Shown piece after piece: positions 3,721-12,823 of a DNA stretch of 21,512 nt. Position 1 is the stretch's first letter. Each line of letters opens with the position of its first letter. Made by a program: the position numbers and the translations under genes. Below the pieces are notes generated by a model, which worked only from the letters and a program-made list of their open reading frames with translations, was not told the origin of the DNA and ran no database searches. Source of the stretch: a virus; IMG/VR virus record IMGVR_UViG_3300025543_000260, positions 1 through 21,512 of that record. The stretch is one strand, 5' to 3'.

Positions 3721-4134
3721 ATGAGTGATGAAATTTACAATAAAATGAATTTAGCTCCAATGAAATCAGTAGAGCTTGTCGCAACAGATAAAAATAGTGA
3801 TGATTTAGAAGATGATTTGGATGAAGTTAGATATAATATAAGAGCATTAATTGATAAAGGTGAAAAATCCTTAGAAGAGTTAATGGACCTTAGTTCACGT
3901 TCTCAGGACGTGAAGGCATATAGAGAATTTTCTGTTTTAGTGAAAGTTCTTTTGGAAGCAAATGACAAATTAATTGAGACAGCAAAAACCAGAAAAGAGC
4001 TTGCACGAACAGAAAAATCAGGTGGATCAGTAAACAATAATTTGTTTATAGGGACAACAACTGAAGCATTGAATTTTTTAAATAGTGCAAAAGACGATAA
4101 GGATGTAATTGATGGCGATTTCACAGACGGATAG
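3721..4134 (+). CDS. 16: terminase small subunit gp16
   Basis: A 137-residue acidic, helical protein directly upstream of gp17, matching the place and approximate size of T4 gp16 (about 164), the ring-forming subunit that recognises DNA and stimulates the gp17 ATPase. The central helices (DDLDEVRYNIRALIDKGEKS... and VKVLLEANDKLIETAKTRKEL) fit the coiled-coil hairpin oligomerisation core of the family. A GGAGAG site precedes the ATG. Its last 23 bp overlap the start of gp17, so the subunits are probably coupled in translation. Confidence 0.85.
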   Translation: MSDEIYNKMNLAPMKSVELVATDKNSDDLEDDLDEVRYNIRALIDKGEKSLEELMDLSSRSQDVKAYREFSVLVKVLLEANDKLIETAKTRKELARTEKSGGSVNNNLFIGTTTEALNFLNSAKDDKDVIDGDFTDG

Positions 4135-4708
4135 ATTCAAAAGAAATCCTCATTTACCAAGGGCTGGTACAGAAAAGCAATTCAGTGAATTTCAATTAAA
4201 AGAATTACTAAAGTGTAAAAATGATCCTATATATTTTGCAAAAACATATTTCAAAATTGTTCATGTGGATAAAGGGTTAATACCATTTGATTTATATGAT
4301 TATCAAGAAAAAGCAATTGAGCTTTTTCAAAATAATCGTAATATGATTATGTGTGCATCTAGACAGTGTGGTAAAACTTCATTTGCAACTGTTATTTTAC
4401 TCCATTCAGCTTTATTTAATGAAGAAAAACTCATAGCAATCCTTGCTAATAAGGGTGCGACAGCTAGAGAAATTTTAAGTCGTGTTAAAAAGGCTTATGA
4501 ACATTTACCAGATTTCATCAAAGGTGGTATTTTAGAGTGGAATAAAAGTTCCATTACCTTTGAAAATGGTTCTATAATAATGGCTGAAGCATCATCATCA
4601 GATAATATCAGAGGAAAATCATGTTTAACTGGTGATACAAGAGTGTGTGTTGAAATAAATGGTTCTTATTATTTTACTGAAATAGATAATATTATAAATA
4701 AAAAGTAA
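4112..4708 (+). CDS. 17: terminase large subunit gp17, N-terminal half fused to N-intein
   Basis: 198 residues: 170 of gp17 N-extein and 28 of intein. Walker A is SRQCGKTS (residues 83-90), the ATP-binding loop of the packaging motor; DYQEKAIELF (63-72) upstream resembles the region before the ATPase core. The extein ends at DNIRGKS (164-170), just before where the Walker B strand should follow, and Cys171 opens an intein block A (CLTGDTRV). The ORF then stops at TAA, so this protein alone lacks Walker B and the nuclease domain and cannot work. ATG at 4112 is preferred over TTG at 4109; AAGG lies about 9 bp upstream inside gp16. The complement is the gene at 5728-7122. Confidence 0.92.
   Translation: MAISQTDRFKRNPHLPRAGTEKQFSEFQLKELLKCKNDPIYFAKTYFKIVHVDKGLIPFDLYDYQEKAIELFQNNRNMIMCASRQCGKTSFATVILLHSALFNEEKLIAILANKGATAREILSRVKKAYEHLPDFIKGGILEWNKSSITFENGSIIMAEASSSDNIRGKSCLTGDTRVCVEINGSYYFTEIDNIINKK
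4622..4705 (+). other. N-intein piece (IntN, 28 aa) of a split intein
   Basis: Begins with the nucleophile Cys171 of the ORF and block A (CLTGDTRV), continues about 20 residues (EINGSYYFTEIDNIINKK region) and is ended by TAA. Block B (T-x-x-H) is not in this piece but in the C-piece, so the split is much nearer the N-terminus than in the classical DnaE type, which splits at the endonuclease site after about 100 residues. TerL split inteins with an N-piece of about 25 residues, such as AceL-TerL from an Antarctic lake metagenome, are the closest precedent I know. Confidence 0.9.
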
Positions 4709-4732
4709 GTTCGTCTATATATAAAGGTGCAT

Positions 4733-5731
4733 ATGTTCTATACAATATATAAAACTATTAATTTAATAAACAATAAAGAATATATTGGTTTTCATTCAGT
4801 AAAAACACTGAATGATATTGTATATGAGGAAAGTGTAAATGGTTCAATATTTAAAGATGGTTATTTAGGGTCTGGTAAATTAATAAAAAGAGCACTAGAG
4901 AAATATGGACCATTAAATATGAAACAAGAGCTTATATTAATAACTGATGATAGAGAGGAAGCTGAAAAATTAGAGAGTGAATTGGTCGATGTTAAATGGA
5001 CTCTTAGGGAAGATACTTATAATATAGCTTTAGGTGGTAATGTTAGAGTTATGGTAGGGAAGAATAACCCTATGTATGGTAAACCACTATCTAAAGAATC
5101 ATTAAAAAAAGCATTAGAGACCAGAAAAAGAAATGGTTATATTTTTAGTTGGGCCAAACTTATTGAAGTAGAAACAAATAAAATTTTCTATCGTTATGAT
5201 GATGTTTATGATTATTTTAATATAGAAGAAAAACAAAATAAACTTAAAAAACATAAATTATATGAATTAGTATTTAATGGTGTTATTAAGTATGAAAGTT
5301 CTTATTTACATGATATTGCAGTTAAAAGTTATTTGGAATATAACACTTTTATAGATAATAAACCAATAAGACGTGAAAAATTAGCTAAAATGACTAGTGA
5401 AAGATTTTCTGGTGTAGCAAAAAGTGAGGAATCTAATAGGAAAAGAGGAAAATCTATAAGCAAATGGATAGAAAAAAATCCTCAAGAACATAAAAAACGT
5501 ATGGATAAGATCAATAAAAATCCAGAAAAAATAAAAAAGACTGCAGATAAACATAGAGGAATGAAAAGGTCACAAGAAACAAAGGATAATATATCTAAAT
5601 CTCTAAAGGGTAAAACAGCAACCAATAAAGGAAAAAGATATATCTATAATGTGGATACATTAGATGTTAAAATGATAGACAAAAATGAAAATCTCCCAAT
5701 AGGTTGGCAGTATGGGTACAAACCCAAATGA
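4733..5731 (+). CDS. GIY-YIG homing endonuclease between the split terminase halves
   Basis: 332 residues from ATG 4733, which has AAAGG 5 bp upstream; a GTG at 4727 is less likely. The N-terminal nuclease domain has the GIY-YIG signature as YTIYK...KEYIGFHS (residues 3-22), then YLGSGKLIKRALEKYG and an acidic region EEAEKLESELVD with candidate catalytic Glu, then YNIALGGN. A NUMOD3-like DNA-binding module follows (GKNNPMYGKPLSKES), and a Lys-rich C-terminus with SQETKDNISKSLKGK is typical of Seg-type phage endonucleases. It should cut intein-free gp17 alleles and spread the whole insertion by repair. It lies in the same frame as IntN, separated by one stop and eight codons, and its TGA overlaps the next ATG. 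Confidence 0.92.
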   Translation: MFYTIYKTINLINNKEYIGFHSVKTLNDIVYEESVNGSIFKDGYLGSGKLIKRALEKYGPLNMKQELILITDDREEAEKLESELVDVKWTLREDTYNIALGGNVRVMVGKNNPMYGKPLSKESLKKALETRKRNGYIFSWAKLIEVETNKIFYRYDDVYDYFNIEEKQNKLKKHKLYELVFNGVIKYESSYLHDIAVKSYLEYNTFIDNKPIRREKLAKMTSERFSGVAKSEESNRKRGKSISKWIEKNPQEHKKRMDKINKNPEKIKKTADKHRGMKRSQETKDNISKSLKGKTATNKGKRYIYNVDTLDVKMIDKNENLPIGWQYGYKPK

Positions 5732-6021
5732 AAATTTTATCAGAAAATAAATTTAGAGATTTTGATGGCTTTGAATATATGGGAGACAAAGAAACATATA
5801 TTCTAGAGACTAACAAGACCACATTACGATGTACTAATGATCATGAGTTTTTAACTGATAATAGAGGTTGGGTAGAAGCACAAAATCTAGTTACAGGTGA
5901 TATATTATCTGGAAATGATTTTATAAGTTTCAAAAAAACCAATGTTATTGAAGATGTTTATGATGCCATAAATGTTGATGAGACTTCATCATTTTATGCA
6001 GAAGGTTTAACTGCTCATAAT
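5728..6021 (+). other. C-intein piece (IntC, 98 aa) of the split intein
   Basis: Contains block B as TNDHEFLT (Thr36, His39 of this piece), then GWVEAQNLVTGDIL typical of intein blocks, block F as DVYDAINVDETSSFYAEGL (about 76-94), and block G ending His97-Asn98, followed by Cys+1 of the extein at 6022. All residues needed for trans-splicing (Cys1 of IntN, block B His, His-Asn, Cys+1) are present. No endonuclease domain lies inside the piece. Confidence 0.92.
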
Positions 6022-7122
6022 TGTTTTCTATTATATATTGATGAGCATGCGTTCGTTGAAAATTGGGATGAATTTTCTGCATCTGTTCTACCTACTCTTT
6101 CATCTGGTGAAACTACAAAAATGATTTTTACAAGCACCCCACATGGCTTGAATCATTTCTATTATTATGTTGAAGGCGCTAGACAAAAGAAAAATGGTTT
6201 CGCTTTAATTGAGGTTGATTGGAGAGAAGTACCCGGTCGAGATGAAGCATGGAGACTTCGTGCTCTATCAGAACTTAATAATAATCAACTAAAATTTGAT
6301 CAAGAATATGACTTGGAATTTATTGGTTCATCTGGAACACTTATATCTGGTGCTGCACTTAAATTACTAAATCCAATGAAAGAATTATATGTTGATGAAC
6401 ATTTATTTAAATATAAAGAAAGAGTTCAGGGTGATATTTATGTTATGGTTGTGGATACATCACGTGGTAAAGCCTTGGACTATTCAGCATTTAGTGTAAT
6501 TAATGTAACAAAAACTCCATATGAACAAGTATGCACTTATCGAAATAACACGGTAACTCCATCTGATTATGCTGTTACATGTTCCACAATTGCAGAATAT
6601 TATAATGATGCACAAATTTTAGTTGAATTGAATGACTTGGGGTCACAAGTAGCTGATTTATTATTTGATGTGGAAAGACAATTAATATCAACAGCGAATA
6701 ATGGTAGAAATGGTAAACAAGTAAGTTATTCAACAAAATCTGAAAAAGGTTTGACTATATCAGCTGGTACTAAAGCATCTGGTTGCGCTATGTTGAAACT
6801 GCTTATTGAAGGTAATAAATTAATAATCAATGATAGGTTCACTATTGCAGAATTAAACAAATTTTCACAAAAAGGAAATACATATCAAGCTGAAGTAGGT
6901 GCTCATGATGATTTGGTTATGGGGTTAGTACATTTTGGTTGGCTTTCTTCAGTAGGATTCATAGACCAATTGAATGATTTGGATATCATGGCGGCACTTA
7001 GAGAAAAAACGGAAGAAGACCATATGAATGACCTTCTCCCATTTGGTATTATTTCTAATGGTCTAGAAGACTTTGATGAAGTTATTGAATTACATGAAGA
7101 TGAATGGCTACATGCATTTTAA
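5728..7122 (+). CDS. 17: C-intein fused to terminase large subunit gp17, C-terminal half
   Basis: 464 residues: 98 of C-intein and 366 of gp17 C-extein. The ATG overlaps the endonuclease stop (ATGA) with no Shine-Dalgarno visible, so reinitiation is likely; a TTG at 5704 is a poorer start. After splicing, Cys171 is followed by LLYIDEHAF, with Walker B Asp177 and catalytic Glu178, then motif III TSTPHG (207-212). The RNase H-like nuclease metal ligands appear as VDTSRG (Asp315), VELNDLG (Glu372) and GAHDDLVMG (Asp466/467). The joined protein is about 536 residues against 610 in T4. It cuts the concatemer and pumps DNA into the prohead through the gp20 portal. Confidence 0.93.
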   Translation: MKILSENKFRDFDGFEYMGDKETYILETNKTTLRCTNDHEFLTDNRGWVEAQNLVTGDILSGNDFISFKKTNVIEDVYDAINVDETSSFYAEGLTAHNCFLLYIDEHAFVENWDEFSASVLPTLSSGETTKMIFTSTPHGLNHFYYYVEGARQKKNGFALIEVDWREVPGRDEAWRLRALSELNNNQLKFDQEYDLEFIGSSGTLISGAALKLLNPMKELYVDEHLFKYKERVQGDIYVMVVDTSRGKALDYSAFSVINVTKTPYEQVCTYRNNTVTPSDYAVTCSTIAEYYNDAQILVELNDLGSQVADLLFDVERQLISTANNGRNGKQVSYSTKSEKGLTISAGTKASGCAMLKLLIEGNKLIINDRFTIAELNKFSQKGNTYQAEVGAHDDLVMGLVHFGWLSSVGFIDQLNDLDIMAALREKTEEDHMNDLLPFGIISNGLEDFDEVIELHEDEWLHAF

Positions 7123-11217: not shown

Positions 11218-11250
11218 AAAAAAGGCTGGAGAAATCCAGCCTTTTTTTTT
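11218..11250. terminator. bidirectional terminator between gp18 and the converging endonuclease gene
   Basis: Hairpin GGCTGGA-GAAA-TCCAGCC flanked by an A run and nine Ts. It serves gp18 rightward; on the other strand the stop codon of the leftward endonuclease gene overlaps its edge. Confidence 0.9.
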
Positions 11251-12823
11251 AAAATACATATTTTGCATTACCACAATCGTATATACATAGAAAATTATTT
11301 CTAGCCATATTTTCATATTCAGTCAAATTTTTATCAAATACTTCTAATTTATTTTCCAATTTGTGTTTTTGATAATTCATTCTATTTTCTAAATTCATAG
11401 AATCTTTCTTACAATAGAAATAATTTGGATTGGTATATTTTACAAAATTAAATCCTAATTTCTCATAAACTCTACCAAAACCAAATCTTAAATCAGCATA
11501 TGTAATAACAGACTTCAAACCAGAATGCTTAAACATTTTTGAAGCACCACCAATAATATTGTAACCTATTTTAAATGACATACGGGTGATTTCATATTCA
11601 TAATTTTTGTCAAATCTGGATTTTGAAAATGAAGAAACACCTACTAACTCATTATCATAATATAAACCAACATTAATAGAACTATTCACATAACCATTAA
11701 TATGATTTTTGTTATGAAATATCTTGGCTTCGGAAGATGTTATAAAACCTACATTACACTTTCTACCAAATATTTTTTGTGATTTACCTAATCTTGATTT
11801 AATCATGGATTTTATAAGGTCTTTATTATTAATCCATTCATTTTCGAATATTGTAACTACATCAATATCAAATTCATTCTTAAGAGTAAGGGTTTTTTCT
11901 TGGTGATATTTTTTAGTTGTGCCACTGTTTATACTATGCCAGAACAAACCACAAAATTCAAAACCAACATTTTTTTCTGGACAATAACAATCTATTTCTC
12001 TAACTCCAATAGAAGTTTTGAATTTATTTGAATAACACTCCACATCTAATGATTTTATATATTCCATAATTTCTAATTCACCCTTAGACTTATTATAAGA
12101 GTGTGATTTTATGTTTATATTCTTTTCATATAAAACTTGACGTAAAAAGCTATCAGAGAATGTATAACCATTTTCTTTAATGATTGTTGGAATATCTTTT
12201 GTCTCATTTTCTTTGAGAATATAATCTAAATCATTTTCAATAGTTTTTCTATTTTCAAATCTATCTCTAGTCCATTTGCCATGTGGGAAATCAATGTTTT
12301 GTTTTTTACATATAGACCTGATATGAGATGATTTTACATTATATTTTTCACAAATATCTTCTAAATACATTTCATCTGATATATCATTTAATATACACTC
12401 ATAATCATCAAACCCAATAAAAATATTAAGCCTCTTACAAATTTCATTAAATGTGATATAATTTAAATTTACACTGTATTTTTCATTTAAAAAGTTGATA
12501 GCATCCTTTTTAGTGTTAAATGAAAGAATATCATTTTCCCATGATTTATATTGGGGATATTTTAATGCGTTATCTGATTTCTTAAATTTTTTTCTTTTAT
12601 GGTGTTTTCTACATTCAGAACATACTTCTGTATTTCTAGAAAAACGTTGATTAAATATATTACCACAATCTGCACAGCGACATTCTACAATATAATTAGA
12701 TTCCCTTTTAAGGTGATTAACATTAACAGAAAGCGTTTCTTTAGAGGTATCATACCCTAAAGATTCATAATATTTTTTATTTGGTCCTGTTGATTTTATC
12801 TCGATTTTCTTTGTTATGATCAT
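11249..12823 (-). CDS. Vsr-like (EDxHD) homing endonuclease with zinc finger and GNAT-like C-domain
   Basis: 524 residues. An N-terminal zinc ribbon has C50-x2-C53 and C68-x2-C71. Middle repeats with helix-turn-helix character (residues about 100-240) probably read DNA. The nuclease core is GELEI (Glu249), REIDCYCP (Asp278), GFEFCGLFWHS (Glu289, His297), KKYHQEKT and VTIFENEW, the pattern of the Vsr-like EDxHD family first described with fractured genes and split inteins. The C-domain (about 360-490) has a GNAT-like layout common in these phage enzymes (GGASKMFKHSG, FGRVYEKLGFNF). It sits antisense between gp18 and gp19, 3 bp after the preceding stop with no Shine-Dalgarno, at the end of a leftward operon. 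Its cleavage site is unknown. Confidence 0.85.
   Translation of the reverse strand: MIITKKIEIKSTGPNKKYYESLGYDTSKETLSVNVNHLKRESNYIVECRCADCGNIFNQRFSRNTEVCSECRKHHKRKKFKKSDNALKYPQYKSWENDILSFNTKKDAINFLNEKYSVNLNYITFNEICKRLNIFIGFDDYECILNDISDEMYLEDICEKYNVKSSHIRSICKKQNIDFPHGKWTRDRFENRKTIENDLDYILKENETKDIPTIIKENGYTFSDSFLRQVLYEKNINIKSHSYNKSKGELEIMEYIKSLDVECYSNKFKTSIGVREIDCYCPEKNVGFEFCGLFWHSINSGTTKKYHQEKTLTLKNEFDIDVVTIFENEWINNKDLIKSMIKSRLGKSQKIFGRKCNVGFITSSEAKIFHNKNHINGYVNSSINVGLYYDNELVGVSSFSKSRFDKNYEYEITRMSFKIGYNIIGGASKMFKHSGLKSVITYADLRFGFGRVYEKLGFNFVKYTNPNYFYCKKDSMNLENRMNYQKHKLENKLEVFDKNLTEYENMARNNFLCIYDCGNAKYVF

Follow-up and report, generated by a model that had tools for sequence, protein, structure and literature searches.

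Split inteins with short N-terminal pieces are valued tools, and their natural origin is poorly understood. Among the closest described systems, the inteins AceL-TerL, GOS-TerL and Cat of the large terminase subunit (TerL) have N-pieces of 25, 37 and 30 amino acids (aa) and C-pieces of 104-115 aa, and the split of GOS-TerL is 37/115 (PMC11766414). All intein endonuclease domains were stated in 2019 to occupy one conserved site; others would be expected if insertion were random, and it has been asked why none lie elsewhere (PMC6801210). Here we describe a TerL intein in IMG/VR virus record IMGVR_UViG_3300025543_000260, analysed as a 21.5-kb fragment (the window, positions 1 to 21,512) with a T4-like late gene block. 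It is very probably a class 1, atypically split intein in the TerL of a T4-like phage, and its two predicted pieces flank a homing endonuclease gene (HEG). The features of the locus are as follows.

3721..4134, + strand: terminase small subunit (gp16-like), upstream neighbour of TerL (PHROG 445, E 2e-18)
4112..4621, + strand: TerL N-extein, the ATPase part with Walker A, ending IRGKS (PF03237, E 1.5e-11; PHROG 5989, E 1e-49)
4622..4705, + strand: N-intein, 28 aa, with Cys1 and block A (alignments of the N-piece and of the whole intein)
4709..4732, + strand: spacer of 24 nucleotides (nt) with a Shine-Dalgarno (SD)-like aaaggtg ahead of the HEG (sequence)
4733..5731, + strand: SegE-like GIY-YIG HEG with NUMOD3, 332 aa (NUMOD3, E 1e-6; PHROG 314 homing endonuclease, E 2e-25)
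5728..6021, + strand: C-intein, 98 aa, with block B (H39), block F (D79) and block G (H97-N98) (alignment; fold match)
6022..7122, + strand: TerL C-extein, with Cys+1, Walker B YIDE and the nuclease domain (PF03237 and PF17289)

The first open reading frame (ORF) of terL starts at ATG 4112 and ends IRGKS|CLTGDTRVCVEINGSYYFTEIDNIINKK before a TAA stop at 4706-4708, and the third, 5728-7122, reads MKILSENKF...GLTAHN|CFLLYIDE, with the C-intein first and the remainder of TerL after it. The gap of roughly 1 kb between the intein halves is almost all GIY-YIG/NUMOD3 HEG, whose relatives match SegE_GIY-YIG and GIY-YIG profiles and whose stop overlaps the C-intein start (ATG at 5728) as ATGA. The HEG shares its reading frame with the N-piece, a TAA standing in between, as is expected if the three-gene form derives from a fused form. 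An earlier note on this DNA had given the coordinates and lengths of both intein pieces exactly (4622-4705, 28 aa; 5728-6021, 98 aa) and had placed the break between blocks A and B, where the alignments also put it (28/98). Its description of the locus was right for the intein pieces and left the HEG at 4733-5731 unmentioned; with that gene in the gap, the window terL is a fractured gene, in which the halves of a split intein flank an endonuclease gene within a conserved enzyme gene.

The splicing residues that the note had listed are all found in the window sequence: Cys1, His97-Asn98, Cys+1 (6022-6024) and, encoded at 5842-5844, the block B His, which is H39 of the C-piece. Across 15 aligned C-inteins, L4, H39, V83, H97, N98 and C99 are invariant. 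Sequence searches with the C-piece matched CatC (6dsl_B) and other inteins. The predicted structure of the C-piece (pLDDT 85) shows, for that piece only, the HINT fold of a class 1 intein; its best Protein Data Bank matches are all inteins, the top four at TMq 0.77-0.83, and the fold matches include 6dsl_B (Cat), 7cfv and 6vgv (VidaL), of which Cat and VidaL are both atypically split. With both intein parts removed, TerL is 48-58% identical to three TerLs that lack an intein (Rhizobium phage RHph_I1_18, 58%; the others phiM12 and Psh_XG4), and none of these alignments has a gap closer to the junction than about 70 columns. The predicted junction peptide of the spliced protein is IRGKSCFLLYIDE. 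The insertion site, RGKS|C, lies four residues ahead of the Walker B strand YIDE; in place of Cys+1, relatives without an intein carry Leu, Ile or Ala. The N-piece is not a chance ORF, because 7 distinct phage lineages, the window among them, carry the same N-piece with its stop 11-33 nt before the HEG, and the stop codon takes three different forms across them. Intein anatomy, conserved residues, exact extein junction and family, and likewise the joint lateral movement of intein and HEG described below, are established by sequence; protein splicing itself we infer, with the exact extein junction as indirect support.

Searches of IMG/VR with profiles, with the HEG and with two DNA patterns, near-identical contigs being counted once, gave 13 distinct family members, the window and 12 others. 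The three-gene state occurs in the window, L002/L042, L004, L005 (whose C-half lies past the contig end), L041, L044 and L062, with near relatives L063 and L070. At these loci the N-piece stops with TAA, TAG or TGA, the spacer measures 11-33 nt, the HEG may or may not share the frame of the N-piece, and an SD-like sequence precedes most of the HEGs. In the two-gene state (L064, L065, L067, L079 and L061), N-extein, N-intein and HEG form one ORF and C-intein plus C-extein another; in L061 the insertion point is nine residues downstream, at the Walker B Glu (LYLDE|C). In L071 the GIY-YIG domain is embedded within a single 807-aa ORF (SegE_GIY-YIG at residues 28-122, then Intein_splicing at 160-204); the AlphaFold model of this contiguous intein is weak (pLDDT 67, pTM 0.37) and was not used for domain arrangement. 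L083 is a single ORF with no nuclease, that is, a contiguous mini-intein. Relatives of the HEG stand free directly upstream of an intein-less terL in L068/L069, with remnants in L072/L073, and L052-L054 also hold intein-less TerLs. The C-intein used as a single query sequence gave no match in IMG/VR, no relative was found in GTDB genomes, and tblastn of cultured phages with the C-intein matched other TerL inteins and recognised no member of the window's exact clade.

Several of these loci show further peculiarities. Decayed-looking HEGs, one split by a frameshift and one truncated, stand beside intact intein pieces in L044 (1808-2799) and L063 (1909-2676). L004 has, at about 2408-2515, a tandem duplication of about 23 codons spanning the N-terminal splice junction (RGQSCVTGDTR repeated), either an assembly error or real. 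An extra TerL-ATPase-like ORF of about 200 aa follows the small subunit gene and precedes terL in L044 (847-1443), L061 (2244-2855) and L053 (401-991); in phiM12 such an ORF is annotated gp17.2.

In the intein tree the family is one clade (100/99), which excludes Cat and the inteins of other TerL sites; within it the three-gene forms make up one subclade (99/96). The HEG phylogeny, for which other Seg-like enzymes served as outgroup, is in agreement: the HEGs of TerL form a clade (99/99), and so do those of the three-gene loci (95/92). The TerL extein tree groups the L004 TerL with those of L064, L065 and L067, and places the window TerL nearest to that of an intein-less Rhizobium phage. The approximately unbiased (AU) test rejects the three-gene group as a single TerL clade (p-AU 5e-88), and likewise the L004 intein grouped with its TerL kin (p 8e-6); window and L004 agree at 63.5% in the intein but at 41% in TerL. 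The intein phylogeny departs from that of the host gene, as in a homing intein. Most simply read, intein and HEG have moved jointly between phage lineages, already in broken form.

A different reading of the window, which we consider highly improbable, is that the intein is degenerate: a fusion of N-intein and HEG would have gained its stop through a recent nonsense mutation or through faulty assembly, leaving TerL inactive or dependent on read-through. The common frame of N-piece and HEG, parted by TAA, fits such an event, but the three-gene state is a supported clade that includes all three stop codons, HEGs in and out of frame and, mostly, SD-like sequences. Moreover, all parts appear to be under purifying selection (dN/dS of 0.02-0.48 in N-piece, HEG and C-piece, with dS high or saturated), and TerL is essential in T4-like phages. 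Slightly less credible still is a group I or II intron that carries an ORF, lies in the coding sequence of a contiguous intein and is removed from the RNA, which would leave the protein unsplit. TerL introns are known in ICP1 (PMC10448857), and the TerL gene of Campylobacter phage IBB_35, 2-52, was described in 2012 with an intein and an intron (PMC3322345), but Rfam gave no match in 4000-6300 at the gathering threshold and even at E 1. The HEG ORF fills the gap but for 24 nt, which are too few for a ribozyme; each gene has its own start, the HEG being preceded by the SD-like sequence and the C-piece coupled to it through ATGA; and the fused forms read straight from N-intein into HEG, L071 through the whole element. 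The least credible possibility, that the TerL halves are separate non-covalent subunits that never splice, like the ribonucleotide reductase encoded in pieces on either side of an endonuclease gene (non-spliced genes in pieces are known in phages; cited in PMC10448857), is at odds with the conservation of the splice-junction residues and of the whole HINT core, and with a break inside the ATPase core beside Walker B, where the halves could hardly function apart.

Several points nevertheless weigh against our preferred history of a mobile split intein that was broken stepwise. The dN/dS estimates come from dS values near saturation, and the groups submitted to the AU test were chosen after the trees had been seen. 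L071 keeps the Met of MKIL, the C-intein start elsewhere, and may have been re-fused by a deletion. The trees do not resolve the family at its base, and the order of fission is therefore a matter of parsimony and no proof.

For a trans-splicing intein with a homing nuclease between its halves, we propose the following. Three proteins would be made from adjacent genes: TerL-N with the 28-aa N-intein, the GIY-YIG homing endonuclease, and the 98-aa C-intein with TerL-C. The intein halves would associate, the short N-piece threading into the long C-piece and completing one HINT fold, and trans-splicing would proceed by an acyl shift at Cys1, transfer to Cys+1 and cyclisation of Asn98. This would restore TerL directly before Walker B, DNA packaging being presumably impossible otherwise. 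We infer that the HEG cuts the empty allele, an intein-less terL, near the insertion site; repair would then copy the entire three-gene cassette. The cassette most likely originated by HEG entry between blocks A and B of an intein, followed by stepwise separation, apparently from the C-intein first and from the N-intein second.

Inteins at other TerL sites, here termed a (Walker A), c (Walker B Glu) and d (EFE|CEF), have a break or linker at the same intein place, after 27-43 residues. MUG113/T5orf172-like nucleases are found at L002 site a and IBB_35 site b, and IBB_35 site c has an HNH nuclease, assigned by an HNH-like motif and a MobE annotation, with no Pfam match. A TnsA-like nuclease is fused to the N-intein in coliphage kaaroe and Shewanella phage Thanatos-2, and forms a separate gene in Escherichia phage CE1 (called by Pfam scan), Yersinia phage TG1 and Pseudomonas phage PspYZU05 (both called by eye). 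In Vibrio phage 1.255.O (L092 405-3555) a GIY-YIG domain (PF01541) is fused after the site-d N-intein and the C-half is separate, and the site a nucleases of L005, L044 and L062 are probably Vsr-like. We lean towards the view that endonucleases have a second point of entry into the TerL inteins of T4-like and related phages, lying between blocks A and B and independently colonised at four TerL sites by GIY-YIG (SegE-like and T5orf172-like), TnsA-like PD-(D/E)XK, HNH and probably Vsr-like nucleases; that stepwise separation of the nuclease ORF yields natural atypically split inteins; and that the three-gene cassette still homes as a unit.

Other arrangements of TerL were observed alongside. The cultured T4-like phages kaaroe, Thanatos-2, PspYZU05, CE1 and TG1 (L085 445-3556, L090 467-3567, L087/L088/L089) have a fractured TerL with a TnsA-like nuclease, some parts of which are annotated as hypothetical proteins. 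In L002 (923-5834; also L003, L042 and L058) three split inteins, at Walker A, RGKS|C and EFE|CEF, divide TerL into four pieces, and no HEG lies between the halves of the third. The Walker A-site HEGs of L002 (1284-2294) and L062 (1793-2803) are alike over their first about 215 residues (36% identity) and differ in their C-terminal nuclease domains, which by sequence is nuclease swapping. The IBB_35 TerL (L086 5-5290) reads better as three inteins than as intein plus intron: site a appears contiguous and sites b and c split around the T5orf172 and HNH-like nucleases, the site c C-half looking frameshifted in the record. In Vibrio phage vB_VmeM-32 (L029 1102-3216, L034 1405-2082) the TerL halves, with a Walker A split intein, lie about 77 kb apart on opposite strands, and the Walker B Glu of this TerL carries a contiguous mini-intein as well. 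About 24 kb separates the TerL halves of Campylobacter phage F341 (L030 1489-2817, L032 1378-2094), a Fletchervirus; they lie on opposite strands, and each ends or begins in an intein piece (31/100 aa); in NCTC12673 (L031) the TerL C-half is unannotated. The window itself has a second homing endonuclease (PHROG 3339, E 1e-88) at 11249-12823 on the minus strand, antisense to the late genes. It lies downstream of the tail sheath gene and by eye is like the tail-tube-adjacent endonuclease of Campylobacter phages.

The family displays one element, at what is essentially a single gene site, as a contiguous intein, as a nuclease-bearing one and in two and three pieces, together with evidence that the broken, three-gene form continues to spread. 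Its main value lies in this series of states and in the alternative nuclease position, more than in one added member of a class. Close analogues in phages grown on E. coli (kaaroe, on K-12 MG1655) make the mechanism open to experiment.

Compared with known systems, the window intein (28/98) resembles AceL-TerL, GOS-TerL and Cat in its TerL host gene, class 1 residues, short N-piece and A/B split, and its C-piece resembles CatC (6dsl_B) both in alignment and in predicted fold. It differs from AceL in its TerL site, RGKS|C as against what we take to be EFE|CEF, and from all three in belonging to a separate clade (100/99) and in having a GIY-YIG HEG between its halves; L002 carries a separate site-d intein that does match CatC (E 5e-10). 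The AceL-like class proposed by the earlier note therefore holds in predicted function and in the A/B split, and does not hold as orthology. In the comparison with TerL inteins, the window intein falls outside the Cat clade (100/99), where Cat, a consensus design, is the only stand-in for AceL. As the note had also proposed, the window intein is excluded from the canonical, DnaE-like split inteins, which are broken near the canonical endonuclease site and whose N-piece is about 100 aa as against 28 aa. A short N-piece is not, as it had supposed, limited to AceL: GOS-TerL, PolB16 OarG and VidaL have one too, as does every TerL split intein of this analysis whose N-piece is free. PolB16 OarG and VidaL share the very short N-piece and the A/B cut with the window, and PolB16 OarG differs in its DNA polymerase gene, Ser1 and 168-aa C-piece (split 15/168; PMC10189870).

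The fractured genes gp41, NrdA, NrdJ and IMPDH are similar in that a conserved phage enzyme gene is broken by a split intein around an endonuclease gene. Those described by Dassa et al. in 2009 are reportedly split at the canonical endonuclease site and associated with Vsr-like nucleases, so that the window would differ in both split position and nuclease. The free-standing Seg GIY-YIG endonucleases belong to the same nuclease family, with relatives across T4-like phages, whereas HEGs of the window family lie inside or fused to an intein, those of TerL forming their own clade (99/99). As in inteins of the PI-SceI type, an endonuclease that would drive homing is nested in the intein, but it lies between blocks A and B and not at the canonical C35 position. 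As judged from their predicted domain order, L071 and the fused forms are counter-examples to the statement of a single endonuclease site (PMC6801210).
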